NCBI RefSeq assembly: GCF_902459645.1
Contig: NZ_CABPSK010000003.1
Coordinates: 62,001-126,000, forward strand
Reading direction: 5' to 3'
Origin: Pandoraea pneumonica
GTDB lineage: Bacteria; Pseudomonadota; Gammaproteobacteria; Burkholderiales; Burkholderiaceae
Length of the DNA stretch: 64,000 nt
A model generated the notes under the pieces. The model searched no databases. It had not been told where the DNA came from and was given only the letters and a program-made list of their open reading frames with translations. The translations under genes and the position numbers were made by a program. This document shows, in pieces, positions 1,406 through 15,004 of this stretch; position 1 is the first letter of the stretch; each line of letters opens with the position of its first letter.

Positions 1406-1503
1406 GGCCCGAATTCTACAGTGATTGACCCAGCATTGACGGCGGGCAACGGCATCGACACCTACGATTCCCGCTGTCGACACTATTCACACACGGAGTT
1501 GTG

Positions 1504-2295
1504 ATGCCCAATACCTTTCATCGCGTGGGGACTGGCCCCCACGTGGTTCTTGTCCTGCATGGCTGGTTCGGCGACGCGCACGCGTTCGACGCCATCGAAG
1601 CGTGGCTCTCCCGCGACGAGTTCACCTACGTCTTCATGGACTACCGCGGCTACGGCGGCATGCGTGAGGTCGCGGGCGCCTACACCATCGATGAGATTGC
1701 CGATGACGCGCTAGCACTCGCCGACGCCCTTGGTGCGCAGCAATTCAGCCTTATCGGGCACTCGATGGGAGCGATGGCGATCGAGAAGATCGCCGTCCTT
1801 GCGTCTGAACGCGTTCGCGCGTTGATACCCGTGACACCGGTGCCATGCGGCGGCGTGCCGTTCGACGCGCAGCGACGTGCGATGTTCGAAAATGCCGCGC
1901 ATGACATCGAATTGCGCCAGGCGATCATCGACCGCAGCACGGGCCACCGGCTGCCATCGCAATGGATCGAATGGAAAGCGGCTTACTCGGCATCGCGCTC
2001 GACGCCGGAAGCCTTCGCCGCCTACTTTGCCGCATGGGCCGACACCAACTTCAGCCACGAAATTACGGGCGTGCATCCGATGAAAGTGCTCGTCGGCGAA
2101 CATGACCCGACGTTCAACGCGACGCTCGTGCGTGAGACGTATCTGCAACGATATCCCCACGCCACGCTCGAGGTCATGCCGAACGCCGGTCACTATCCGA
2201 TGAACGAAACGCCGCTCGCCCTCGTCACCGCCATCGAATCGTTCCTGCGCATCACGACGCCGGCAACCACTCTTGCAGCGTCACTTCGATGGTGA
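1504..2295 (+). CDS. alpha/beta hydrolase
   Basis: A 263-aa cytosolic alpha/beta-hydrolase. The HGWFGDAHAFD segment supplies the oxyanion hole, GHSMGA the nucleophile serine elbow, GEHD the acid and GHYPMNE the histidine. Together they make a complete Ser-Asp-His triad. The ATG at 1504 is preferred over the GTG at 1501 because the GGAG at 1495-1498 is then 5 nt away. The substrate cannot be deduced; relatives are esterases, C-C hydrolases or lactonases. Its 3' end overlaps the 3' end of the opposite-strand PPC gene by 44 nt, an unusual tail-to-tail overlap of two coding regions. Confidence 0.85.
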   Translation: MPNTFHRVGTGPHVVLVLHGWFGDAHAFDAIEAWLSRDEFTYVFMDYRGYGGMREVAGAYTIDEIADDALALADALGAQQFSLIGHSMGAMAIEKIAVLASERVRALIPVTPVPCGGVPFDAQRRAMFENAAHDIELRQAIIDRSTGHRLPSQWIEWKAAYSASRSTPEAFAAYFAAWADTNFSHEITGVHPMKVLVGEHDPTFNATLVRETYLQRYPHATLEVMPNAGHYPMNETPLALVTAIESFLRITTPATTLAASLRW

Positions 2296-2668
2296 TGAAC
2301 GACAGGTTGCCACCGCGCACGAAGCGTCCGGCGAACATGCGTCCTTCGGTGTCGGCCACCATGCCGTGCAGCATCGGCAGCGCGTTGGCGGGGTCGGTGC
2401 GCACATCGACTTCGCCGAACACGTTGAGGATTTCCACGCCCGGACCCTGCACGAGTTGCTCGCGCCAGCCCTCGCCCGCGCGAAACGTGAGCCGTGCATC
2501 GATCAGACTGCCGACCGCCCCGCGCACGATCGCGCGCGAGATCGAATGCTCGGCGCACAACGCTTCGATGCTTTCGGTCAGATCCTGATTCGGTTTGAGA
2601 CGGGCCACCACCAACCGGCCCAGCGTGCCATTTTCAATGGCTACGGGAACATCGAGCGCTGCGCTCAT
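2252..2668 (-). CDS. PPC (DUF296) domain protein, degenerate metal site
   Basis: A 138-aa protein consisting of one PPC/DUF296 domain, a small trimer-forming fold found in plant AT-hook proteins and in many bacterial proteins of unclear role. The stretch SISRAIVRGAVGSLIDARL and the later LPMLHGMVADTEGRMFAG segment are diagnostic. The histidines that normally form the domain's metal site (HxH...GGH) are mostly lost: the second half reads AGRF rather than GGH. It is the last gene of the thiolase-ligase-PPC operon and its ATG overlaps the stop of the upstream PPC gene by 4 nt, so the two are probably translationally coupled. A heteromer with that protein is an inference. Confidence 0.8.
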   Translation of the reverse strand: MSAALDVPVAIENGTLGRLVVARLKPNQDLTESIEALCAEHSISRAIVRGAVGSLIDARLTFRAGEGWREQLVQGPGVEILNVFGEVDVRTDPANALPMLHGMVADTEGRMFAGRFVRGGNLSFITIEVTLQEWLPAS

Positions 2669-3201
2669 GAGAGATCTCCGGCAACGGGATGGAGCAGGTG
2701 AAAGCGCGTTTCCTCATCGTCTGCGGTCACATAGCCGCCGTGCTCGAACAAGCACAGGCGGATAACCACGGGCTCATCGCCAGCCCATGTGTGATCGAGA
2801 ATCAGATGGCCGCCATGCAACATGCCCGACGGGTCGGAAAACCCCGCATGGCAATGCAGCAATGTCGCCCCGTCCGCTGTACGGCCCACCGTGATGGCGC
2901 CGCCGATCAGGTCCACTTCCCGGGTTTCGTCGACCGGCGCCCCATACCCGAAGGGGCGCTCTGTATCTGCGGTGTTCTCGATCATGTGATACCGCAGACC
3001 TCGCGCGGTGCCCGCGCAAAAACGGCCGACGCCGCCGCCGTACGCATAGCGGGATAACGCCGCGCGTAACGACTCGCCAAGATTCGCACCAGACCGGATC
3101 GTCACGCGCAGTTCGTGCTGCCCGCTCAACACGCAGTCTTCCACACGGGGTAACGTGGGGGCGCCTGCATGCCGATAGATCCGTGAAAGCGCAGGTTTCA
3201 T
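2665..3201 (-). CDS. PPC (DUF296) domain protein, intact metal site
   Basis: A 178-aa protein with a PPC/DUF296-like domain in its C-terminal two thirds. It keeps the histidine pattern LLHCHAGFSDPSG followed by MLHGGHLI, the usual metal-binding signature of bacterial PPC proteins. The N-terminal third (TLPRVEDCVLSGQHEL onwards) looks like a separate strand-rich extension. The start at 3201 gives an ATGA overlap with the acyl-CoA ligase stop, and the stop overlaps the next gene's ATG in the same way, so three genes are chained. Annotation as a DNA-binding protein would be by homology only; being encoded between catabolic enzymes, it could be an enzyme or a small-molecule-binding subunit. Confidence 0.75.
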   Translation of the reverse strand: MKPALSRIYRHAGAPTLPRVEDCVLSGQHELRVTIRSGANLGESLRAALSRYAYGGGVGRFCAGTARGLRYHMIENTADTERPFGYGAPVDETREVDLIGGAITVGRTADGATLLHCHAGFSDPSGMLHGGHLILDHTWAGDEPVVIRLCLFEHGGYVTADDEETRFHLLHPVAGDLS

Positions 3202-4775
3202 AGTCGATAGTCTCCTTGCTCTTCGAGCATCGTCTTGATTTGCTTCTTCACGATCTTGCCGTAGCCCGACTTGGGCATGGCATTCCAGAACACAAAGCGG
3301 CGCGGCCACTTGTAGCGGGCAATGCGCGCTTCGAGATGTCCCAGCAACTCGTCGGCTTGCGCGGCCATGCCCTCACGGGCCACCACCACCGCCAGCCCAC
3401 TCTCGCCCCACTTGGGGTCGGGCACGCCGAGCACTGCGCACTCCGACACTGCCGGGTGCGTGAGCAACGCTTCTTCGATCTCGCGCGGATACACGTTCGA
3501 GCCGCCCGAGATGTACATGTCCGACGCGCGCCCCGTGATGTACAGGAACCCCTGTTCATCGACATGGCCCAGATCGCCGGTGTGGAACCAGTCGTCCTTG
3601 AACGCCTTGGCGTTCGCGTCCGGGTTGTTGTGATAGCCCATGAACACGGCCGGCCCACGCACGCAAATCTCGCCTGAGCCGAACGGCGGCTGACGCACAC
3701 CATGTTCGTCGAGAATCGCCACTTCCATCCCCGTGCGCGGCAATCCGCAGGTGCCCACTCGCGCATCGGGCGCATCGTCGTCATCGCCATGCAGCCACGG
3801 CGGCAGCACGGTGATATTGCCCGTCACTTCACCAAGACCGTAGTACTGCACCAGCACGCGGCCCAGCTTTTGCAACGCGTATTTCTGATCGGCGCGATAC
3901 ATCGGCGCGCCCGCATAAATCACGAAACGCAACGAGCTGTGATCGTATTCGTCGACGGACGGGTCTTCGACCAGCATCTTCACAATGGTCGGCACGGTGA
4001 ACATGTTGTCCACCCGATGACGCTCGACGGCCTGCCACACCTGCGCCGCATCCATCTTCTCGCCCGGCAGCAGCACACTCGCGGCCCCACGCGCCGTGTT
4101 GACGATGGCGTGAATGCCCGCGCCGTGCGAGAGCGGTGCGACCACCATCGAACGGCTGCGATAGGTGATGCCCGGCATCAGGTCGGCCAGATGGTTGGTG
4201 ACGACGAACGCCATTTGCCCGTGCGAGAGCACACCCGCTTTCGGATGCCCCGTCGTGCCCGAGGTGTAGAAGAACCACAGCGGGTCTTCGTACTCCACCT
4301 CTTCCTCGAACTCGGGCGCGCCCATGTGCTCGGCGACCAGCGTCTCGTAATGCAGTTCGCCCGCGCGAGGGGTGCCCAGCGCGATCACGTGGCGCAATGC
4401 GGGGGACGCCGCCTTCACCGCGTCGACATGCCCCTCGAAACCCGCGTCGTAAATCATCGTGCATGCCCCGCTCGACTGACCGAGATAGGCCGCTTCGGGC
4501 GCAGTAATGCGGAAATTGGTCGGCACCCAGATCGCGCCGAGCTTGAACGCGACCCACGCGCTCTCGAAGATCGGCAGATTGTTGCGCGAGTGCACCAGCA
4601 GCTTGTCGCCCTTGCCCACACCGAGCTTGCGCAACGCATCGACGGCGGCATTCACACGGGCGTCGATTTCGCCCCACGTCGCGACTTTGTCGCCGATGAT
4701 GACACCCGCCTCATTCGGATGACGCCGGGCAACGTCGGCCAACAAGCGGCCGAGATTCATGACCTTCTTGAGCAT
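3198..4775 (-). CDS. AMP-forming acyl-CoA synthetase (class I adenylate-forming)
   Basis: A 525-aa ligase of the ANL superfamily that activates a carboxylic acid to its CoA thioester through an acyl-adenylate. Visible motifs are the P-loop FYTSGTTGHPKAGV (about residue 168), YYGLGEVTG (A5), WFHTGDLGHVDEQG (A7), ITGRASDMYISGGSNVYP (A8 hinge) and the catalytic lysine segment PKSGYGKIVKKQ near the C terminus. Length and motifs are complete. GAGGAG lies about 8 nt before the ATG. It follows the thiolase gene by 88 bp and overlaps the next gene by 4 nt. The acid substrate is unknown; medium-chain, branched or aromatic acids are all possible. Confidence 0.88.
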   Translation of the reverse strand: MLKKVMNLGRLLADVARRHPNEAGVIIGDKVATWGEIDARVNAAVDALRKLGVGKGDKLLVHSRNNLPIFESAWVAFKLGAIWVPTNFRITAPEAAYLGQSSGACTMIYDAGFEGHVDAVKAASPALRHVIALGTPRAGELHYETLVAEHMGAPEFEEEVEYEDPLWFFYTSGTTGHPKAGVLSHGQMAFVVTNHLADLMPGITYRSRSMVVAPLSHGAGIHAIVNTARGAASVLLPGEKMDAAQVWQAVERHRVDNMFTVPTIVKMLVEDPSVDEYDHSSLRFVIYAGAPMYRADQKYALQKLGRVLVQYYGLGEVTGNITVLPPWLHGDDDDAPDARVGTCGLPRTGMEVAILDEHGVRQPPFGSGEICVRGPAVFMGYHNNPDANAKAFKDDWFHTGDLGHVDEQGFLYITGRASDMYISGGSNVYPREIEEALLTHPAVSECAVLGVPDPKWGESGLAVVVAREGMAAQADELLGHLEARIARYKWPRRFVFWNAMPKSGYGKIVKKQIKTMLEEQGDYRL

Positions 4776-4863
4776 CTTGCTCGTCTCCTCTGCTTTGCTC
4801 TTTGTCTGCTTTGCACGGCCTTGCTCTGCGCATCGAACACGGCCGCCGGGCCATTCATGCCAA

Positions 4864-6030
4864 TCAACGGGCTTCGAGAATGCTCACGTAGTTGGCCACC
4901 GCCGCACCGCCCATGTTGAACACCCCCGCGAGCTTCGCGTTCGGAATCTGCATCTCGCCCGCCGTGCCCGTGAGCTGCATCGCGGCCATGACGTGCATCG
5001 ACACGCCCGTGGCGCCGACCGGATGCCCCTTGGCCTTCAGACCGCCCGACGGATTGACCGGCAGCAGGCCGTCTTTTTCCGTCAGCCCCTCGGCCACAAC
5101 GCTGGCTCCCTGGCCCGGCTTGGCAAGCCCCATGGCTTCGTATTCGATGAGCTCGGCAATGGTGAAGCAGTCGTGCGTCTCGACCAGCGACAAATCCTTG
5201 AGCGACAGCCCCGCAACGCCTAACGCCTGACGCCATGCGTGCTGACCGCCTTCGAAGGCAAGCGCGTCGCGGCGCGAGAGCGGCAGGTAGTCGTTGACTT
5301 GCACGGCGGCGCGAAAGCCCACGGCCTTCGGCATCGTGCGAGCGACATCGGCTTTCGAGATCACGAGCGCCGCAGCGCCGTCGGAGACCATCGAGCAATC
5401 GGTGCGCTTGAGCGGACCCGCGACGAACGGATTCTTCTCGGAGACGTTGCGGCAGAAGTCGTAACCGAAGTCGCGGCGCATGTGGGCGTACGGGTTGACC
5501 GTGCCGTTGCGATGGTTCTTCGCGGCAATGCGTGCGAGCGCGTCGGATTGATCGCCGTAGCGATCGAAGTACTGCTGCGCAATGGTGCCGAAAACGCCAG
5601 CGAAGCCGCCCGGAATGCCCGCTTCCTCACGCGCATACGAACACTTGAGCAACACTTCGCCGACTTGCGGGTTAGCGAGCTCGGTCATCTTCTCGAAACC
5701 GATCACGAGGACGTGCGTAGCCTTGCCCGCTTCGATCGATTGCAGACCGCCATGCACGGCAGCCGAGCCGGTGGCGCACGCGTTCTCGTAGCGCGTTGCC
5801 GGTTTGAAGCGAAGGCCGGGAATGTTGTTGAAGACAAGCGACGACGGGAAGTCCTGATACAGGAAGCCGCCATTGAAGGTGCCGACGTGAATCGAGTCGA
5901 TCTGCTCGGGGGCGAGGCCCGCATCGTCGAGCGCGGCTTGCGCCACTTGGGCCAGCAGAACTTCGGCGTCGACGTTATCGAGTTTGCCGAACTGGGAGTG
6001 AGCCCAGCCCGTAAGGCATGCAGCAACCAT
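4864..6030 (-). CDS. thiolase-family acyl-CoA acetyltransferase (SCP2-like)
   Basis: A 388-aa thiolase of the SCP-2/archaeal-like branch. The nucleophilic cysteine is in ENACATGSAA (about residue 88), the histidines are in VETHDCFTIAE and NPSGGLKAKGHPVGATG, and the C terminus is GVFNMGGAAVANYV. The second thiolase cysteine is absent, as is common in this branch. I start it at 6030 (MVAACLTGWAHS), where CGGAGA precedes the ATG; the open frame upstream of this is not thiolase-like. It is first in the leftward operon and a -24/-12 promoter lies 42 bp upstream. The likely role is cleavage of a beta-ketoacyl-CoA made via the adjacent ligase. Confidence 0.85.
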   Translation of the reverse strand: MVAACLTGWAHSQFGKLDNVDAEVLLAQVAQAALDDAGLAPEQIDSIHVGTFNGGFLYQDFPSSLVFNNIPGLRFKPATRYENACATGSAAVHGGLQSIEAGKATHVLVIGFEKMTELANPQVGEVLLKCSYAREEAGIPGGFAGVFGTIAQQYFDRYGDQSDALARIAAKNHRNGTVNPYAHMRRDFGYDFCRNVSEKNPFVAGPLKRTDCSMVSDGAAALVISKADVARTMPKAVGFRAAVQVNDYLPLSRRDALAFEGGQHAWRQALGVAGLSLKDLSLVETHDCFTIAELIEYEAMGLAKPGQGASVVAEGLTEKDGLLPVNPSGGLKAKGHPVGATGVSMHVMAAMQLTGTAGEMQIPNAKLAGVFNMGGAAVANYVSILEAR

Positions 6031-6070
6031 GAAGTATCTCCGGAAAATTGGGGTGATCCAGACTCCGGTG

Positions 6071-6087
6071 AGCAATTTCGATGCCAG
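6071..6087 (-). promoter_or_regulatory. sigma-54 (-24/-12) promoter for the thiolase operon
   Basis: Read on the minus strand the site is CTGGCATCGAAATTGCT, with GG and GC separated by exactly 10 nt as RpoN requires; the consensus is TGGCACG-N4-TTGCW. Transcription would start near 6060, giving a 5' leader of about 30 nt before the thiolase ATG at 6030. Confidence 0.65.
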
Positions 6088-6301
6088 TGTTGCGCGGCTC
6101 ATGAACGCCATGACATCGAACGCCGATTGCGCAACGGGACACAGGGCGATTCAACCCGTCGTCCGAACACACGCTTGTGGCGTGCGCGCAATTGACGTAA
6201 GCGTAAAGCCGGATTCCTAACGGCATCAAGTGAATTCGAATGCCCGGCGCATGAAGCGAATTTGCTGTGATGCAGCAACGCCGCCCGGGTCGAATCGAGG
6301 G

Positions 6302-6390
6302 TGTCTCACGTGCGACAGGTGTCGCATCCACTGTCGCACTCGCGCGAGACACGTGTCGCAACGGGCACCCCGGATGCGACAGGTGTCGCA
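6302..6390. promoter_or_regulatory. activator-binding array: three TGCGACA-N2-TGTCGCA palindromes
   Basis: There are two perfect palindromes, TGCGACA-GG-TGTCGCA, at 6311-6326 and 6375-6390. Between them lies an imperfect copy, CGAGACA-CG-TGTCGCA, at 6345-6360. Extra half sites occur at 6302-6308 (TGTCTCA) and 6332-6338 (TGTCGCA). The centres are 34 and 30 bp apart, about three helical turns each, so the sites lie on roughly one face of the helix. The placement between divergent sigma-54 promoters suggests an upstream activating sequence for an RpoN-dependent activator, perhaps the one encoded at 11584-12915. Confidence 0.7.
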
Positions 6391-6547
6391 TGTCTGCGCG
6401 CCGCCAAGTTGATCCCCATGTTGATCACCCTGCACGCCCGTCATGCCTTCGCCCCCGCCTGTTCCGCCAGACAAAAGCCGCTGCGCCGTACGCCCACGCT
6501 CGCTTGGATGCTTAACAACGTAAGGGTTTTCCCGTCAGGGCGTCGAA

Positions 6548-6564
6548 CTGGCATTCGATTTGCG
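6548..6564 (+). promoter_or_regulatory. sigma-54 promoter candidate 1 for the TRAP operon
   Basis: CTGGCATTCGATTTGCG has GG-N10-GC spacing and near-consensus -24 and -12 elements. Transcription would start near 6576, about 110 nt before the dctP-like ATG. Confidence 0.5.
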
Positions 6565-6601
6565 TAAGATAGCCAAGCCACTTGCGAGCCCGCTTTCCGA
6601 G

Positions 6602-6618
6602 TTGGCAGGAACGTTGCA
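6602..6618 (+). promoter_or_regulatory. sigma-54 promoter candidate 2 for the TRAP operon
   Basis: TTGGCAGGAACGTTGCA has GG-N10-GC spacing and matches the consensus TTGGCACG-N4-TTGCA better than the site 54 bp upstream. Transcription would start near 6630, leaving a leader of about 57 nt that includes the AAGGAG ribosome-binding site at 6672-6677. Confidence 0.6.
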
Positions 6619-6686
6619 GGGCAACACGCCCGCACCTTCCCGCTTCAGACGCAGTCACCAAACCTATAAACAAGGAGACATGCAGT

Positions 6687-7706
6687 ATGAGCACCATGGA
6701 TCGTCGCCACTTCATCAAAGTTGTGGCCGCCACATCGGCAGCCGCCGCCACGGGGTTGTATCAAGCGCAGGCACACGCCGCCGAAATCACGCTGAAATTC
6801 GCCAACAACTTGCCGATCAGCCATCCGATGAACATTCGCGCCAAGGAGATGGCGCAGAAGATCGCGGATCAATCGAAGGGCCGCATCGACTTCCAGATTT
6901 ACCCGAACAACCAACTCGGCACCGACAGCGACATGCTGAGTCAGATTCGCTCGGGAGCCATCGACTTCTTCACGCTCTCGCCGCTGATTCTCGGCACGCT
7001 GGTGCCCTCGGCGCAGATCTCGGGTGTGGGCTTCGCATTCAAGGACTACGGCCAAGTGTGGGCCGCCATGGACGGCGATCTCGGCGCGCACGTGCGCGGT
7101 CAGATCGCGAAGACCACGGTGTTCGCGTTCGACAAGATTTGGGAGAACGGGTATCGCCAGATCACCACGAGCAATCGCCCGATCAACTCGCCCGCCGATC
7201 TCAAGGGCCTGAAGATTCGCGTGCCGACGAGCCCGCTGTGGACGTCGATGTTCCGTGCCTTCGATTCGTCGCCGACGTCGATCAACTTCTCGGAAGTCTA
7301 TTCGGCGCTGCAAACGAAGATCGTCGAAGCGCAGGAAAACCCGCTCGCGCTGCTCACCACGGCCAAGCTGTACGAAGTGCAGAAGTACGTCTCGATGACG
7401 AACCACATGTGGGACGGCTTCTGGTTCCTCGCCAACAAACAGAAGTGGGACAAGATTCCGAAGGATTTGCAGGACATCATCACCGCCAACGTGAATGCCG
7501 CGGCACTCGTGCAGCGCGACGACGTGAAGAAGCTCAACGACGGCGTGATGGTCGAACTCAAGCAGAAGGGTCTCGTGTTCAACGCACCGAACAACGAACA
7601 GTTCCGCGACAAGCTGCGCTCGGCAGGCTTCTATACCGAATGGCATAAGAAGTTCGGCGACGAGGCGTGGGCGATGTTGGAAAAGTACACCGGGAAGCTT
7701 GCGTAA
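6687..7706 (+). CDS. TRAP transporter substrate-binding protein (DctP family), Tat-exported
   Basis: A 339-aa periplasmic binding protein of a TRAP carboxylate transporter. The N terminus MDRRHFIKVVAATSAAAATG carries a twin-arginine motif, then a hydrophobic segment and an AHA-AE cleavage site near residue 31. The mature protein has the DctP hallmarks FANNLPISHPMN, LGTDSDMLSQIRSGAIDF and LKGLKIRVPTSPLW; in the last, the conserved arginine normally binds the substrate carboxylate. ATG 6687 has AAGGAG 9 nt upstream. Its stop abuts the permease start. The likely substrate is the acid handled by the neighbouring CoA ligase, which is an inference from shared control DNA. Confidence 0.9.
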   Translation: MSTMDRRHFIKVVAATSAAAATGLYQAQAHAAEITLKFANNLPISHPMNIRAKEMAQKIADQSKGRIDFQIYPNNQLGTDSDMLSQIRSGAIDFFTLSPLILGTLVPSAQISGVGFAFKDYGQVWAAMDGDLGAHVRGQIAKTTVFAFDKIWENGYRQITTSNRPINSPADLKGLKIRVPTSPLWTSMFRAFDSSPTSINFSEVYSALQTKIVEAQENPLALLTTAKLYEVQKYVSMTNHMWDGFWFLANKQKWDKIPKDLQDIITANVNAAALVQRDDVKKLNDGVMVELKQKGLVFNAPNNEQFRDKLRSAGFYTEWHKKFGDEAWAMLEKYTGKLA

Positions 7707-9584
7707 ATGGAAACGTTGACGATGACGGCCGAGCCCACGCACGCGCTCGCCCGCCTCTTCTGCCACGTCAACCGCGCGGTGATGAAAGTCACCGAGGCGG
7801 TTGCCGTGCTGCTGGTCGTGGCGGAGACTCTCATCCTGCTCGCGGGCGTGATCTCGCGGTACGGGTTCGACAATCCGCTCACCTGGTCGGATGAACTGGC
7901 GCAAATCCTGTTCATCTGGCTATCGATGCTCGGTGCGGTGATCGCACTCGATCGCGGTGAGCACATGCGTTTGTCCGCCATCGTCAACAAGCTCCCCGCA
8001 GCGTGGCGCGACTGGTTCCAGACGATGGCCGCGCTCACAGTATGCGTGTTCGTGGCGCTCATCATCATGCCCGCCTACACGCATGCCATCGAGCAGATGG
8101 ACATCACCACGCCTGCGCTCGAAATTCCCGACGGCTTGCGCGCGGCTGCCTTGCCGGTAGGCGCGGCCCTCATGCTGCTCGCTGCGATCTCTCGCATGGC
8201 GCGTTGTTCTACGGTGCGTCAGTTCGGCTTGGGCGTGTTGGTGGTCGCCGCCATCGGCGCCGCACTGTGGCTCGGCCGCCCCGCGCTGATCGCGATGGGC
8301 AACTACAACTTGCTCGTGTTCTTCGTGCTGATCGTCGGCGTGTGTGTGGCCGGGGGCATTCCGATTGCGTTCGCCTTCGGTACCGCCACGCTGGCCTATC
8401 TGGCGCTGGTGACCGACGCCCCGTTGCAGATCGTCGTGAGCCGCATGGACGAAGGCATGTCTGGCCTCATCCTGCTCTCGGTGCCGCTCTTCGTATTGCT
8501 CGGTGCGCTGATCGAAATGAGCGGTCTGGCACGCAGTCTGATCGAGTTCATGGCATCGCTGCTCGGCCACGTGCGCGGCGGTCTGCAATATGTGCTGCTC
8601 GGGGCGATGTTTCTCGTCTCGGGCATCTCGGGTTCGAAGGCTGCCGACATGGCCGCTGTCGCCCCGGCACTGTTCCCCGAGATGAAGCGCCGCGGCTCGA
8701 AGCCGGAAGACCTCGTTGCACTGCTCGCGTCGACTGGCGCGATGACGGAGACGATTCCGCCGAGTCTGGTGCTCATCACCATCGGCGCCGTGTGCGGTGT
8801 GTCGATTACTGCACTCTTCGTCGGCGGCCTGCTACCCGCCGTGATCGCCACGCTCGCCATTGTGGTGGTGTGCTTCACGCGCTCGCGTAAAGAAGCCCCT
8901 AACGCAGCACGTCGCGCGCCGTGGAGCGTGATCGGCAAGACGTTCATCATCGCGCTGCCCGCGCTGGCCCTGCCGATTCTGATCCGTACGGCGGTGATCG
9001 AAGGCGCAGCGACGGCGACGGAAGTCTCGACGGTCGGTATCGCTTACACGATCGTGATCGGCCTGATCGTGCATGCCTTCAAGAAACATCTGGACTTCAA
9101 GCGTCTGTATCCGCTGCTCACGGAAACCGCTGCGCTGTCGGGCGCCATTCTGCTGATTATCGGCATGGCCACCGCGATGGCATGGGCGCTCACGCAGTCG
9201 GGCTTCTCGGCCAAACTGGTCGGCCTGATGCACGGCGTGCCCGGCGGGCAGGTCGGCTTCCTGCTGATCTCGATGGTCGTGTTCATCGTGCTGGGCAGCG
9301 TGCTCGAAGGCATTCCCGCGATTGTGCTGTTCGGCCCGTTGTTGTTCCCGGTGGCGCGCTCCTTGGGAATTCACGACGTGCATTACGCCATGGTCGTGAT
9401 TCTGTCGATGGGCATGGGGTTGTTTGCCCCGCCGCTCGGCGTCGGCTTCTATGCCGCGTGCGCGATCGGCAAGACGTCTCCCGACAAGGTGTTCAACCGC
9501 ATGTGGACCTACATGGGCGCGCTTCTCATTGCGCTGCTCATCGTCGTCTTCGTGCCTTGGATCTCGATCGGCTTCCTGAAGTAA
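7707..9584 (+). CDS. fused TRAP transporter permease DctQM
   Basis: A 625-aa inner-membrane protein joining the small DctQ subunit (about residues 1-185, four helices, signature WSDELAQILFIWLSMLGA) to the large DctM subunit (about 190-625). The DctM part has about a dozen helices and the patterns FVLLGALIEMSGLARSLIEF and FAPPLGVGFYAACAIG. It uses the sodium gradient to import the acid delivered by the binding protein. Translation starts directly after the upstream stop codon with no intergenic base, so the two are cotranscribed and probably coupled. Natural Q-M fusions are known in TRAP families. There is no sign of frameshift. Confidence 0.9.
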   Translation: METLTMTAEPTHALARLFCHVNRAVMKVTEAVAVLLVVAETLILLAGVISRYGFDNPLTWSDELAQILFIWLSMLGAVIALDRGEHMRLSAIVNKLPAAWRDWFQTMAALTVCVFVALIIMPAYTHAIEQMDITTPALEIPDGLRAAALPVGAALMLLAAISRMARCSTVRQFGLGVLVVAAIGAALWLGRPALIAMGNYNLLVFFVLIVGVCVAGGIPIAFAFGTATLAYLALVTDAPLQIVVSRMDEGMSGLILLSVPLFVLLGALIEMSGLARSLIEFMASLLGHVRGGLQYVLLGAMFLVSGISGSKAADMAAVAPALFPEMKRRGSKPEDLVALLASTGAMTETIPPSLVLITIGAVCGVSITALFVGGLLPAVIATLAIVVVCFTRSRKEAPNAARRAPWSVIGKTFIIALPALALPILIRTAVIEGAATATEVSTVGIAYTIVIGLIVHAFKKHLDFKRLYPLLTETAALSGAILLIIGMATAMAWALTQSGFSAKLVGLMHGVPGGQVGFLLISMVVFIVLGSVLEGIPAIVLFGPLLFPVARSLGIHDVHYAMVVILSMGMGLFAPPLGVGFYAACAIGKTSPDKVFNRMWTYMGALLIALLIVVFVPWISIGFLK

Positions 9585-9610
9585 GTCATACGTATGGCTA
9601 GGTAACTGAC

Positions 9611-9641
9611 GGGCTCCGCCGCTTTGCTGGCGGTGGAGCCC
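9611..9641. repeat. intercistronic hairpin between TRAP permease and SDR genes
   Basis: An inverted repeat: GGGCTCCGCC pairs imperfectly with GGCGGTGGAGCCC. No T-run follows, so it is more likely an mRNA-processing or stability element, or a weak attenuator, than a terminator. Confidence 0.4.
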
Positions 9642-9677
9642 GCGCTGTAAATCGAAATAAATTTAGGAGTCCATAGC

Positions 9678-10433
9678 ATGACCCAGAAAGTGGCAGTGGT
9701 GACAGGCGGTGGCATGGGGATTGGTGCGGCCATTTGCGAGCGGCTGGCGAGCGACGGCATGACGGTCGTGGTCGCGGACCTGAACGAGGCAGTCGCCCAC
9801 GAGACGGCGGGTAAGCTCCGCGAAGCAGGCCACGACGCGTGGGCACTCGCGATGAACGTGGGCGATGAGGCGTCGATTGCCGACGGGTTCCGGCAAGTGG
9901 CGCAAAAGCACGGGCGCTGCGATGTGCTGGTCAATAACGCGGGCATCGCCAAGACGTTTCCGTTTCTCGAATATCCGCTCGATCACTGGCATCAAGTGAT
10001 GGCCGTGAACCTGACCGGCACGCTGCTGTGCGGTCAACATGCGGCACGCCTGATGCGCGAGCAACGCTGGGGACGCATCGTCAATCTCGCCTCCGTGGCG
10101 GGCATTCTCGCGAGCGCGGGGCGCACGGCCTATGGCACGTCGAAGGCCGCGGTGATCGGTCTGACGCGTCAGATGGCGATTGAACTGGCGCCGTTCGGAA
10201 TTACGGCTAACGGCGTTGCACCAGGCCCCATCGACACGCCGCTCACCAAGGCGCTGCACTCCGATATCTCGCGCCAGCACTATACGGAAACGACGCCGCT
10301 CGGTCGCTACGGCCAGCCGCGAGAGATTGCGGGTGCCGTGAGTTTTCTGGCGTCGGACGATGCGTCGTATGTGACCGGGCATATCCTGCCGGTCGACGGC
10401 GGGTTTGTCGCCGCCGGGATTTTGGAAATCTAA
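9678..10433 (+). CDS. short-chain dehydrogenase/reductase (SDR)
   Basis: A 251-aa classical SDR. The Rossmann motif TGGGMGIG is at residues 9-16, VLVNNAG follows, the catalytic serine is in NLASVAG and the YGTSK motif carries the Tyr and Lys. All catalytic residues are present. The C-terminal VTGHILPVDGGF is typical of FabG-like enzymes. AGGAG lies about 10 nt before the ATG. It sits 93 bp after the TRAP permease in the same direction and is probably the third gene of the operon, acting as a 3-hydroxyacyl or secondary-alcohol dehydrogenase on the imported compound. It converges on the LysR gene with a 24-bp gap. Confidence 0.88.
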   Translation: MTQKVAVVTGGGMGIGAAICERLASDGMTVVVADLNEAVAHETAGKLREAGHDAWALAMNVGDEASIADGFRQVAQKHGRCDVLVNNAGIAKTFPFLEYPLDHWHQVMAVNLTGTLLCGQHAARLMREQRWGRIVNLASVAGILASAGRTAYGTSKAAVIGLTRQMAIELAPFGITANGVAPGPIDTPLTKALHSDISRQHYTETTPLGRYGQPREIAGAVSFLASDDASYVTGHILPVDGGFVAAGILEI

Positions 10434-10457
10434 GAGGAAATCTGAGTAGGCATGTGA

Positions 10458-11402
10458 TCAGCGCAGGCTGGTGTCCGGCAGATCGGGCACCACCCGCGCG
10501 CCCGGCACTCGCTGCATTTCGCGCCACGCGCGCTGGGCGTTCTCAACGAATGTGGCGACGCAGGGGTTGTGATTGTCTCGGCTCCACAGCAACGCCACTT
10601 CCGCCACCGGCGCGTTACGCAGCGGCTTGAACACCGCGTTACCCGACGCGCTGGCGCTGCTCATCGACATCGGCACCATCGCCACGCCCAGCCCCTCCCC
10701 CACCAAATTGATAATCGTTTGCTGAAGGTTCGTCTCGAGCCGGATATGCGGTGCGAAGCCTGCGCGGCGGCAGTGCGTGACGATCAGGTCATAGACCAGC
10801 GGGGCGATCTCGCGCGGAATGCTCACGAACGATTCATCGGCTAACTGCGTGGCGTCGAGCAGCGGGGTCTCTGCCAGCGCATGCGTGCGCGGGATCACGG
10901 CCACCATCTCCTCGCGAAATACCGTTGCGGTATCGAGCCCCGACAAATCTTCCGGGCGATACATGATGCCCACGTCGATACGTCCAGCTCGCACCGATTC
11001 AGCCAGCAAATTGGGCAGCGCTTCGGCGAGCTTCATGTCGACGCGCGGATAGGCGGCTGCGTAGGTACGCGTGAGCGCAGGCAGGATGTTGTACGCCGAA
11101 GACATCATGAAACCGACGGTAATCGCCCCATCCTCGCCCCGGCTCGCAGCAACCACGTTGCGCTTGGCCCGATCGACCGAATTGAGAATTTCTACCGCGT
11201 CCTGATAAAACCGCGCTCCCGCCCGGGTCAGACGCACGCTACGGCGCGTGCGCTCGAATAGCAGCACCCCCAACTCGGCTTCCATCAGTGCAATCTGCCG
11301 CGAGAGCGGCGGCTGCGAGATGTGCAATTGCTGCGCCGCGCGGCCAAAGTGCAACGTCTCGGCCAACACGACGAAATACTGAAAATGGCGCAGTTCGATC
11401 AT
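10458..11402 (-). CDS. LysR-family transcriptional regulator
   Basis: A 314-aa LysR regulator. The N-terminal winged helix is MIELRHFQYFVVLAETLHFG followed by AAQQLHISQPPLSRQIALME; residues from about 90 onward form the two-lobed effector domain. The ATG at 11402 is chosen because the family motif begins there; the open frame continues 61 residues upstream into the divergent promoter region. A LysR-type T-N11-A box lies 4 nt before the start codon, suggesting autorepression. It is divergent from the sigma-54 activator gene and convergent with the SDR gene, so it probably controls one of these. The effector is unknown. Confidence 0.9.
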   Translation of the reverse strand: MIELRHFQYFVVLAETLHFGRAAQQLHISQPPLSRQIALMEAELGVLLFERTRRSVRLTRAGARFYQDAVEILNSVDRAKRNVVAASRGEDGAITVGFMMSSAYNILPALTRTYAAAYPRVDMKLAEALPNLLAESVRAGRIDVGIMYRPEDLSGLDTATVFREEMVAVIPRTHALAETPLLDATQLADESFVSIPREIAPLVYDLIVTHCRRAGFAPHIRLETNLQQTIINLVGEGLGVAMVPMSMSSASASGNAVFKPLRNAPVAEVALLWSRDNHNPCVATFVENAQRAWREMQRVPGARVVPDLPDTSLR

Positions 11403-11405
11403 CTG

Positions 11406-11420
11406 ATACCCCACAGGTAT
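11406..11420. promoter_or_regulatory. LysR-type T-N11-A operator
   Basis: ATACC-N5-GGTAT is a perfect dyad containing the T-N11-A core of LysR-type boxes, only 4 nt upstream of the LysR ATG. A second dyad, CAATA-TTG-TATTG, lies at 11432-11444. The pair would suit recognition and activation sites of the divergent regulator. Confidence 0.5.
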
Positions 11421-11583
11421 TAATAGCGCATCAATATTGTATTGGATGTTATGACTGTGCGGTCGTATGCTCCATTTGCGGTCGCCACCCGAGCGAGACG
11501 CAACAATAAAGAGACGTGAAGGAAACGCCAGGCCAAAAGCCACCGACGGCGACCTTTCGTAACGATACGAGAAGGAGACAGTC

Positions 11584-12915
11584 ATGCCCGCTCACCTTGC
11601 TGTAGCGAACGCCCCCGCTCGACCCGTCAGTCCGCTTGGTTCCCTTGGCTATCTTGGCAATGTCGCCCCCAATGTCACCCCGTTAGGCACGTCGGCCACC
11701 TTTGGCAACGTCGCCTCGATTGCTCCCCTTGCTCCTCTTGCTCCTGCCTTACCGCTCGCTCCGGCGCCCGCCACGGCGGCTCAGCGCCAGATGCGCCCCG
11801 ACTATCTCGCCATCGACGATCTCAGCGGCACCGACGCCCGCATGCGCGACCTGCTCGCGCGCGGCAAGCGCTTCGTCGATCGCGGCCTGCCGGTGCTGAT
11901 TCTCGGCGAGACGGGCACCGGTAAGGAATTTCTCGCCCGCGCGCTGCATGCTTATAGCGAGCGGCGCGCGCAAGCATTCGTCGCGATCAATACCGCCTCG
12001 ATTCCCGAACATCTGGTCGAGAGCGAATTGTTCGGCTATCAACGCGGCGCGTTCTCCGGTGCACTGCCCGGCGGCATGAAAGGCAAGCTGCAACAGGCCG
12101 ACGGCGGCACGCTGTTTCTCGATGAAATCGGCGACATGCCGTATGCGCTGCAAACGCGGCTGCTACGCGTGCTATCGGAGCGCGAAGTCACGCCGCTGGG
12201 CGCGAGCCGCGCCATTCCCGTCGACGTGCAATTGATTTGCGCCACCCATCAGGATCTCGCTAGCGCGGTCGCACAAGGCAAGTTTCGCGAAGACCTCTAT
12301 TACCGCGTCGCCGTGGGTGTGCTCACGCTGCCCACGCTTCACGAGCGCGACGACAAGCCCGAGCTTATTGCGCGCATGCTCTGCGACGAATGGCCCGGCC
12401 TGCGCATGGATCAAGCGCTCGCCCGTGTGTCGACCGACGCGATGACGCGCCTGCTCGCTTACGCCTGGCCCGGTAACCTGCGGCAGATGCGCGCAGCATT
12501 GCGCTACGCGTGCGCGGTGATGAACGGGAATGTCATGCGGGTGGAAGATTTGCCGCCAGAGGTGTGCGCGGCAACGCCAATGACGGCGACGGTGTCGCGC
12601 CACGCGGTGACCACAGCACACGATGCACCGCTGCGGGAAGCGTCGGTACTGACGATGCAGCATGCGGCGTCGGCGGCGTCGATGAATGCCGTTGCGGCCA
12701 CCGCCTCAGCGAACGTCTCGACCGAGCGCGATACGCCGCGTATGCAGGAGCGAGAACGCATCTTGCAGGCGCTCGCGCAGCATCGCTGGAACATTTCTGC
12801 GGCGGCTCGTACGTTGGGATTTTGTCGCGCGTCGCTGTATCGCAAGCTCAAGCAATTGAGCATTCCGCACGTGCGCGATTGTGCCGATGCGCTGACGTCG
12901 GGGCACTACGCATGA
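11584..12915 (+). CDS. sigma-54-dependent activator (AAA+ and Fis-type HTH) lacking a sensor domain
   Basis: A 443-aa bacterial enhancer-binding protein. Residues 1-70 are low-complexity, rich in Leu, Ala and Pro, with no recognisable sensor. The AAA+ domain follows with Walker A GETGTGKE (108-115), the sigma-54 contact loop as GAFSGA (155-160; usually GAFTGA), Walker B GGTLFLDEIGD (174-184) and the arginine-finger region FREDLYYR. A Fis-type HTH (NISAAARTLGFCRASLYRKL, from residue 403) ends the protein after an Ala/Thr-rich linker. AGGAG lies before the ATG. It sits near a locus with sigma-54 promoters on both strands, so it is the obvious candidate activator. Lacking a receiver or GAF domain, it may be constitutive or controlled by its own level. 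Confidence 0.88.
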   Translation: MPAHLAVANAPARPVSPLGSLGYLGNVAPNVTPLGTSATFGNVASIAPLAPLAPALPLAPAPATAAQRQMRPDYLAIDDLSGTDARMRDLLARGKRFVDRGLPVLILGETGTGKEFLARALHAYSERRAQAFVAINTASIPEHLVESELFGYQRGAFSGALPGGMKGKLQQADGGTLFLDEIGDMPYALQTRLLRVLSEREVTPLGASRAIPVDVQLICATHQDLASAVAQGKFREDLYYRVAVGVLTLPTLHERDDKPELIARMLCDEWPGLRMDQALARVSTDAMTRLLAYAWPGNLRQMRAALRYACAVMNGNVMRVEDLPPEVCAATPMTATVSRHAVTTAHDAPLREASVLTMQHAASAASMNAVAATASANVSTERDTPRMQERERILQALAQHRWNISAAARTLGFCRASLYRKLKQLSIPHVRDCADALTSGHYA

Positions 12916-13837: not shown

Positions 13838-15004
13838 ATGAAAAAAACTCTTCTTGCCGCAGCCGTCGTCGGCGCGTTCTCGGCAACCGCCGCGCATGCA
13901 CAGAGCAGCGTTACGCTGTACGGCTTGATCGATGCTGGCGTTGCTTACACGAGCAACTCCACCACCACGGCAGGTGCTTCGGGTTCGAAGAACTTCCGCG
14001 CAACGAGCGGCCTGGTGAACGGCAGCCGTTGGGGCCTGAAGGGCTCGGAAGATCTGGGTGGCGGTAACAAGGCCATCTTCGTGTTGGAAAACGGTTTCTC
14101 GATCAACAACGGTCAATCGGGTCAAAACAGCCGCATGTTCGGCCGTCAGGCTTTCGTTGGCCTGTCGAACGACAAGTTCGGTTCGGTGACCGTGGGTCGT
14201 CAGTACGACTCGCTGGTTGACTACCTGGCTCCGCTGACCCTGAACGGTTCGTCGTACGGCGGCACGATCGCTTCGCACCCGTATGACAACGACAACACGA
14301 ACAACTCGTTCCGTGTGAACAACTCGGTCAAGTACTCGAGCGCCAACTACAACGGCCTGACCTTCGGCGGCCTGTATGGCTTCTCGAACAAGGCTGGTGA
14401 CTTCGCCAACAACCGTGCATTCAGCGCCGGCGTGAACTACGCAAACGGCCCGCTGACGGTGGCTGCTGCTTACTTGGAACGCCAAGGCAACCCGGGTGCT
14501 AACAACACCGCAGGTGCTGTGGACACGTCGGCAGGCGGTGACTCGGTGTTCAACGCATCGAAGCAACGCGTGTGGGGTATCGGTGGTAACTACGCCTTCG
14601 GCCCGGCAACGGTCGGCCTGGTGTACACCCACACCCAACTGCAAGGTCTGTCGGGCCTGAACTACAACAGCACCGCTGTGTCGTTCAACAACGACGGTCT
14701 GAAGTTCGACAACTTCGAAATCAACGGTCGCTACATGCTGACCCCGGCAGTCTCGCTGTCGGCCGCGTACACGTACACGATGGCCAAGCAAGATTCGACC
14801 GACCAGAAGCCGAAGTTCCACACCGTTACGCTGCAAGCTGACTACCGTCTGTCGAAGCGCACCGACGTGTACCTGACCGGTTCGTACCAACACATCTCCG
14901 ACAACCAAGGCACGGGCTTGCAAGCCGGCGTTGGCGCTGCCGGTGGTATGTCGTCGACCAGCTCGCAAACCGTTGTGGGCACGGGCATCCGTCACCGCTT
15001 CTAA
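13838..15004 (+). CDS. Gram-negative trimeric porin (Burkholderia OpcP/OmpC type)
   Basis: A 388-aa outer-membrane general porin. MKKTLLAAAVVGAFSATAAHA is a clear Sec signal peptide (its first 20 residues carry the Lys and hydrophobic parts), cleaved before QSSVTLYG. The mature part begins with the typical SSVTLYGLIDAGVAY strand and contains alternating beta-strand patterns such as NGSRWGLKGSEDLGGG and GSVTVGRQYDS. It ends in GTGIRHRF, the terminal aromatic needed for Bam-dependent assembly. It would form a 16-stranded diffusion pore for small solutes. Synonymous codon choice looks strongly biased, as in highly expressed genes. It is monocistronic: a long upstream region precedes it and a strong terminator follows. 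Confidence 0.93.
   Translation: MKKTLLAAAVVGAFSATAAHAQSSVTLYGLIDAGVAYTSNSTTTAGASGSKNFRATSGLVNGSRWGLKGSEDLGGGNKAIFVLENGFSINNGQSGQNSRMFGRQAFVGLSNDKFGSVTVGRQYDSLVDYLAPLTLNGSSYGGTIASHPYDNDNTNNSFRVNNSVKYSSANYNGLTFGGLYGFSNKAGDFANNRAFSAGVNYANGPLTVAAAYLERQGNPGANNTAGAVDTSAGGDSVFNASKQRVWGIGGNYAFGPATVGLVYTHTQLQGLSGLNYNSTAVSFNNDGLKFDNFEINGRYMLTPAVSLSAAYTYTMAKQDSTDQKPKFHTVTLQADYRLSKRTDVYLTGSYQHISDNQGTGLQAGVGAAGGMSSTSSQTVVGTGIRHRF

Follow-up and report, generated by a model that had tools for sequence, protein, structure and literature searches.

Most, though not all, sigma-54 enhancer-binding proteins have an N-terminal sensor domain; the PspF/HrpS type is sensorless. SfnR likewise has no sensor domain, and CysB, a member of the LysR family, is a global and unlinked regulator. 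The two meet in the use of dimethyl sulfone by Pseudomonas, where the sigma-54-dependent SfnR stands under the LysR protein (Endoh 2003, as cited in PMC8234197). A second described relative is the ham cluster, which, according to Jenul 2018 (PMC5878181), has AurF-type, A-T-R and cyclase proteins and in Pandoraea is accompanied by two regulators, one of LysR and one of Fis type, as well as by an aldo/keto reductase and an aminotransferase. Here we analyze a catabolic locus of Pandoraea pneumonica, contained in a stretch of 64,000 nucleotides (contig NZ_CABPSK010000003.1, positions 62,001 to 126,000; hereafter the window), in which two diverging operons share a control region and lie next to a LysR gene and a sensorless sigma-54 activator gene. 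We consider it probable, judging from gene families and conserved site patterns, that the locus is a module dedicated to uptake and breakdown and governed by a two-tier switch. A literature search, to which subscription papers were mostly inaccessible, found no account of the module.

Organization of the module

The left operon encodes a thiolase (THL), an acyl-CoA ligase (LIG) and two PPC/DUF296 proteins (PPC2 and PPC1), all read leftward. The right operon encodes a Tat-exported TRAP binding protein (TRP), a fused TRAP permease (TRQM) and an SDR protein. Beyond the SDR gene, the LysR gene (LYSR) runs leftward and the sigma-54 activator gene (EBP) rightward, forming a divergent pair. The gap between the two operons spans about 650 bases (6030 to 6687). 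In window coordinates, the genes are as follows.

2252–2668, minus strand: PPC1, PPC/DUF296 protein (Pfam PCC, 58.6 bits) without the three-histidine site
2665–3201, minus strand: PPC2, PPC/DUF296 protein with a putative metal site at H117, H119 and H133 (numbered on the 2665–3204 translation)
3198–4775, minus strand: LIG, acyl-CoA ligase (AMP-binding, 231.5 bits; NF005676, 882 bits against a cut-off of 774)
4864–6030, minus strand: THL, SCP2-type thiolase, corrected start; Cys, HDCF and GHP motifs
6687–7706, plus strand: TRP, TRAP binding protein with a Tat signal; nearest solved chain 4OAN, 480 bits
7707–9584, plus strand: TRQM, fused TRAP permease DctQ-DctM, from domain matches
9678–10433, plus strand: SDR dehydrogenase, from domain and family matches
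10458–11402, minus strand: LysR regulator, corrected start; best model AlsR, 261 bits
11584–12915, plus strand: EBP, sensorless sigma-54 activator with a GAFSGA loop and a Fis-type helix-turn-helix

The DctP, DctQ and DctM parts were all found, which amounts to a full TRAP transporter. For the thiolase and LysR genes, the starts of the longest open reading frames (6111 and 11585) were discarded and later ones adopted, because the conserved alignment begins later than these frames. The thiolase matches that of its closest named relatives, all Pandoraea, at 95–98%.

An earlier note on this DNA had claimed these genes, their divergent arrangement, and a shared control region with RpoN-type promoters facing each way. 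Gene models and domain matches confirm the genes and their layout, and the control region holds the two best sigma-54 scores of the window, one per direction.

Sigma-54-type sites and palindromes in the divergent gap

A sigma-54 (-24/-12) promoter is marked by correctly spaced GG and GC dinucleotides, in a sequence near YTGGCACGRNNNTTGCW. Scoring 127,968 positions of the window with a matrix built from the RpoN consensus gave the sigma-54-type sites among the following candidate elements.

6071–6087, minus strand: sigma-54-type site of the left operon, CTGGCATCGAAATTGCT; rank 2 of 127,968; conserved upstream of THL
6311–6326: palindrome 1, TGCGACAGGTGTCGCA
6345–6360: palindrome 2, imperfect, with 2 mismatches
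6375–6390: palindrome 3, TGCGACAGGTGTCGCA
6548–6564, plus strand: sigma-54-type site 1 of the right operon; rank 4; counterparts in the more distant Pandoraea loci L018 and L019
6602–6618, plus strand: sigma-54-type site 2 of the right operon; rank 1 of 127,968

The longest THL reading frame includes the left site, which nevertheless counts as upstream, since conservation of the protein begins only at about 6030. Both this site, read from 6087, and the one starting at 6602 carry correctly spaced GG and GC, and both miss the strict pattern TGGCAC-N5-TTGCW, which occurs at 10 places in the genome, near the 7 of a reversed control pattern. Close forms of the 6602 site are present in L004 and L005, and weaker forms (12.2–12.9) in six other Pandoraea loci. 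RpoN is encoded in the genome (PF04552, 225.6 bits), and the arrangement is consistent with RpoN control of both operons.

Three palindromes of the form TGCGACA-N2-TGTCGCA sit between the opposed promoter sites. The exact palindrome is found nowhere in the genome outside this gap, and the one-mismatch form, with 3 places, is not above its reversed control. The weight of these putative binding sites is in their clustering and conservation.

Conservation across genera

The conservation sample comprised the best 80 of 379 thiolase relatives in the genome collection. The module, including its regulators, recurs in Pandoraea, Herbaspirillum, Paraburkholderia and Pseudomonas, with gene order often changed between genera. 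The activator is present in 51 loci: 14 from Pandoraea, 12 from Herbaspirillum, 15 from Pseudomonas, 7 from Burkholderia/Paraburkholderia and 3 others. PPC2 relatives, weak ones included, occur in 42 of 299 genomes of the family, 30 of them in the genus. Five Burkholderia/Paraburkholderia loci also hold AraC relatives (40–41%).

Upstream regions were counted in the 80 loci minus those without the gene or with less than 150 bp upstream (79 for THL, 67 for TRP). Among the activator-bearing loci, a sigma-54-type site scoring at least 11 within 220 bp precedes THL in 48/51 and TRP in 48/51, against 3/51 and 0/51 on the antisense strand. At the stricter threshold of 13, which was used first, the counts are 44/51 and 40/51 (antisense, 1 and 0). 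Sense-strand sites before the other genes of the same loci are confined to PPC2 (6/50), with 0/50 each for LIG, SDR, PPC1 and LYSR and 0/51 for EBP; antisense sites before EBP number 4/51. In the exceptions L060, L076 and L080, the best site stands before PPC2 instead (14.4, 10.9 and 10.9). The palindrome, allowing up to 2 mismatches within 450 bp, precedes THL in 31/51 loci and TRP in 37/51, and EBP (0/51) or LYSR (0/50) in none. It is degenerate in Pseudomonas, with GACACCTGT-like half-sites. In L060, where the PPC2 operon is split off, an exact palindrome and the sigma-54 site are both found at PPC2.

The sites are thus kept by strand and by gene, which supports the earlier proposal of one bidirectional sigma-54-driven module for uptake and breakdown, with RpoN as the predicted sigma factor. 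The earlier note had named the absence of conserved linkage in relatives as grounds for refutation; the linkage is in fact kept across genera, in several gene orders.

A proposed LysR-to-activator relay

The activator consists of a Sigma54_activat domain (214 bits) and a Fis-type helix-turn-helix (48 bits). Just 41–127 residues precede the Walker A motif in all 51 orthologues, and the sigma-54-contact loop reads GAFSGA, not GAFTGA, in 51/51. The N-terminus of the window protein has no Pfam match; its first 80 residues (11584–11820) are Pro/Ala-rich and of low complexity, and their length varies among Pandoraea. The LysR protein scores 261 bits against the AlsR model NF045775, below the cut-off of 430, and so falls outside AlsR. 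The gap between the two regulator genes holds one further candidate element.

11403–11455, minus strand: putative LysR operator, with TCCAATACAATATTGATGC (11428–11446) and AATACC...GGTAT

The element TCCAAT(A/C)C, mostly followed by (A/G)ATACC, is present in 48 of 50 LysR–activator gaps against 0.007 expected per gap, having been picked from the very gaps in which it was counted. L018 carries a one-base variant, and the window genome has a single occurrence. Matches outside the gap are scattered and mostly within genes; one partial match (L055) falls in a TRP–THL gap, and a match in L024 is the same LysR-side element, at the point where the fetched piece was cut.

Two different elements, the palindrome and the LysR-side element, thus mark two tiers, and on this basis we regard a relay as likely. 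LysR would bind the conserved element between its own gene and that of the activator and control activator synthesis; it is the only evident candidate for a ligand sensor in the circuit, and its binding at the element is predicted. The amount of activator, rather than any sensing of its own, would set activity, because the protein has an ATPase domain, a DNA-binding domain and no other. The activator would in turn bind the TGCGACA-N2-TGTCGCA palindromes and, from this one enhancer, drive RpoN polymerase in both directions, at promoters whose sites were found and whose use is expected.

Co-occurrence of the sites with the activator

The cis sites appear mostly to follow the activator. In 29 loci, the fetched piece had no activator, and whole genomes were searched for 13 of them (L010, L013, L014 and ten others). 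A THL site is present in 10 of the 28 testable loci of this kind. Four of these site-bearing loci (L010, L013, L014 and L024) were searched genome-wide, and all four genomes have the activator elsewhere; the other six are Herbaspirillum pieces that end at contig ends and lay outside that search. Conversely, a close activator orthologue is absent from 8/8 searched genomes whose loci lack both sites and activator (L041, L050, L057, L065, L068–L071): six have no match at E 1e-75, and two carry relatives at 47–48%, within frames 693 and 731 amino acids long. A search of the order for the activator at E 1e-95 returned 2 of 300 genomes, including the window genome; this cut-off was too strict, and the result was not used as a count.

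Two loci weigh against such coupling. L031, a second module copy in an activator-bearing genome, has no sites, while L065, in whose genome no close activator orthologue was found, shows a site scoring 14.2 as far as 434 bases upstream of TRP. The genome that holds L031, Herbaspirillum sp. 3R11, has its other copy at L039; the L031 copy has a different gene order and no relay.

We also used the TRAP protein to gather 20 further loci (L146–L165) within the same phylum. None of them holds an activator relative, and sigma-54-like sites or palindromes are just scattered. The same kind of ligase (55–63%) is found in 8/20 and the thiolase in 4/20, with PPC genes in several of these. Thiolase, ligase and a pair of PPC genes also occur, with no relay, in the alphaproteobacterial loci L075 and L081. 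Because thiolase–ligase–PPC sets occur without the relay, the enzymes look like an older unit to which the relay may have been added later.

Several neighbors of the module were noted as well. In eight genomes of one family (L146–L148, L150, L161–L163 and L165), the same TRAP pair, with binding-protein relatives of 61–64%, stands beside a different ligase (29–30% to LIG; PRK08162 type in L148), with no thiolase or PPC gene. An alpha/beta hydrolase gene (1501–2295, plus strand) overlaps PPC1 tail to tail by 44 bases (2252–2295); it was dropped as a module member, as it adjoins the module in 9/17 Pandoraea loci and 0/63 others. A porin gene (13838–15004) adjoins the activator in Pandoraea, and in ten Pseudomonas loci an OprD porin stands beside PPC1 instead.

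Enzyme roles and candidate substrates

The nucleophilic Cys, HDCF and GHP motifs, the class marks of SCP2-type thiolases, are present in 80/80 THL orthologues, and PDB matches include SCP2-thiolases. Judging by family, we propose with good confidence that the TRAP system imports a carboxylate, that the SDR enzyme oxidizes or reduces a hydroxyl or keto group, that the ligase makes the CoA ester and that the thiolase cleaves a 3-oxoacyl-CoA.

The PPC proteins show the PPC fold expected of PPC/DUF296 members. An HxH...GGH motif is found in 65/65 PPC2 orthologues and 0/70 PPC1 orthologues, and also in the solved family members 2dt4, 2hx0, 2p6y and 3hwu. The fold of PPC2 appears to resemble that of alpha-acetolactate decarboxylase, an enzyme with a three-histidine metal site, at 8–12% identity. 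We think it somewhat more probable that PPC2, with PPC1 as a partner without the metal site, is a metal-dependent enzyme than a DNA-binding protein. We know of no assigned function for bacterial PPC/DUF296 proteins; if it is such a metal enzyme, PPC2 would be, as far as we are aware, the first PPC protein to be given a catalytic role.

As to the substrate, TRP is 60% identical to 4OAN; the TRAP model itself is weak (pLDDT 71.4). A review names 2-acetolactate as a new TRAP ligand (PMC5812351). One comparison of neighboring genes covered three Pandoraea loci, L020–L081 and L146–L165. A D-lactate dehydrogenase (Dld) gene is a neighbor in 6/15 Pseudomonas and 4/12 Burkholderia/Paraburkholderia/Caballeronia loci, and GlcF- and GlcD-like genes adjoin the module in Herbaspirillum. 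Because of the likeness to 4OAN, the apparently acetolactate-decarboxylase-like fold of PPC2 and these D-lactate-dehydrogenase- and glycolate-oxidase-like neighbors, our best guess, a tentative one, is the class of short branched 2-hydroxy-3-oxo or 2,3-dihydroxy acids. 2-Acetolactate, for example, could yield acetyl-CoA and a 2-hydroxyacyl-CoA (lactoyl-CoA), and the resulting 2-hydroxy acid could be oxidized by Dld or GlcD-type enzymes.

There is close to an even chance that the same switch serves another acid, such as 3-hydroxy-2-methylbutanoate/2-methylacetoacetate or an aryl 3-oxo acid, processed by SDR, ligase and thiolase while the PPC pair does something else. As a matter of general chemistry, these three enzymes would suit any 3-hydroxy or 3-oxo acid; the closest solved ligases to LIG include fatty-acyl- and feruloyl-CoA synthetases, and the window genome has no Dld. 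The kinship of TRP with 4OAN speaks against such a substrate, and the Dld and GlcD/GlcF-like neighbors point to a 2-hydroxy acid.

A proposed sister relay beside a ham-type cluster

Three Pandoraea genomes (G117, G210 and G222; loci L182–L184) hold the catabolic module together with a second LysR/sensorless activator pair, 50–54% identical to the module pair and with the same LysR element and GAFSGA loop. Near this sister pair, an exact TGCGACA-N2-TGTCGCA with sigma-54-like sites on both sides is present in 3/3 loci (scores 12.4 to 16.6), and the sites precede two genes, one resembling those for phosphopantetheinyl transferases and the other for an aldo/keto reductase. In two of the three loci, a DUF3050 gene has an upstream site as well, scoring 19.1; L182 has none of at least 12 there. 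Besides DUF3050, the adjoining cluster encodes an N-oxygenase of the AurF type, an A-T-R protein resembling peptide synthetases, a polyketide cyclase and an aminotransferase. Taking DUF3050 to stand for HamA, the cluster resembles, by its predicted proteins, the ham (fragin/valdiazen) cluster.

Trees were built from 22 of the 51 module activators and the LysR rows for them, the three ham-side pairs and outgroups. In both, the L046/L048 pair, which adjoins the catabolic module, falls together with the ham-side pair (100/99 each). In the L046 and L054 pieces, the module and relay are accompanied by relatives of two ham-side genes, one for an aldo/keto reductase (71%) and the other, of which just the end is present, for an aminotransferase (56–61%).

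L046, 12941–13930 and 20849–21148, and L054: relatives of the ham-side aldo/keto reductase and aminotransferase genes

Since the sister pair sits at a ham-type cluster and groups with the module-side L046/L048 pair, the relay has apparently been paired with two cargoes, the catabolic module and the ham-type cluster.

The same observations could be read as a signaling program, in which the relay responds to a signal of the diazeniumdiolate type, or to the precursor of one, and a branched-chain by-product is recycled by the module. The shared palindrome in three module-bearing genomes, the tree grouping and the two ham-side gene relatives in L046 and L054 would suit it. Relatives of the ham-type core (DUF3050, AurF, peptide-synthetase-like protein and cyclase) at E 1e-20, however, were found only in L182–L184, not in the window or the other fetched loci, and we consider this program unlikely.

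Two further explanations concern the control region itself. The palindromes could be LysR sites, with the activator acting elsewhere, given that LysR sites are often palindromic and that LysR adjoins the activator in nearly all loci. We rejected this as very improbable: the palindromes are absent before LYSR and EBP, where another element is conserved, and in L060 the exact palindrome goes with the sigma-54 site at the split-off PPC2. That two unrelated operons are neighbors by chance is scarcely credible, for although gene order differs between genera, the linkage survives rearrangement and recurs in more distant genomes without the relay.

Comparison with known systems

The preferred reading, a dedicated module under a two-tier switch, adds to the earlier note the palindromes, the relay from LysR to a sensorless activator, modules without the relay, the paralogous ham-side relay and clues to the substrate. 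It would provide a full, testable circuit of sensor, activator, enhancer and paired promoters for a module of Pandoraea, Herbaspirillum, Paraburkholderia and Pseudomonas. For a TRAP/ligase/thiolase pathway so far uncharacterized it proposes a class of ligand, and for bacterial PPC/DUF296 proteins a role in catalysis; it also suggests which proteins may switch ham-type clusters in Pandoraea. A wider synthesis is speculative and in our view doubtful: a portable two-tier RpoN switch may have been fitted both to a new acetolactate-type route, with a PPC2/PPC1 metal enzyme, and to a ham-type cluster, so that two activators sharing one enhancer code would couple a signal cluster to acid catabolism in those Pandoraea that have both.

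Among the proteins of the route, TRP has its solved counterpart in 4OAN, which is RPB_2686, a TRAP binding protein of Rhodopseudomonas palustris. The PPC proteins differ from alpha-acetolactate decarboxylase in their low identity and in matching only PCC in Pfam, which places them outside its sequence family.

The window activator is like the PspF/HrpS type in having an ATPase and a helix-turn-helix and no sensor domain, and unlike it in its GAFSGA loop and in having a LysR partner. The LysR and Fis regulators that accompany ham in Pandoraea are very likely the sister pair, given the divergent arrangement, the aldo/keto reductase, the same palindrome and the LysR element; their neighbors are biosynthetic, whereas the window pair adjoins a catabolic module. 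The accessible part of PMC5878181 does not mention an enhancer or RpoN for the Pandoraea ham clusters. The SfnR/CysB system shares with the window a sigma-54-dependent regulator under a LysR protein. CysB, however, is global and unlinked, whereas the LysR and activator genes of the window are divergent neighbors with a private element and an acid-catabolism cargo. A sigma-54 activator under a LysR protein is thus already known; what is notable here is the linkage of the two, their conservation and their reuse at a signal cluster.

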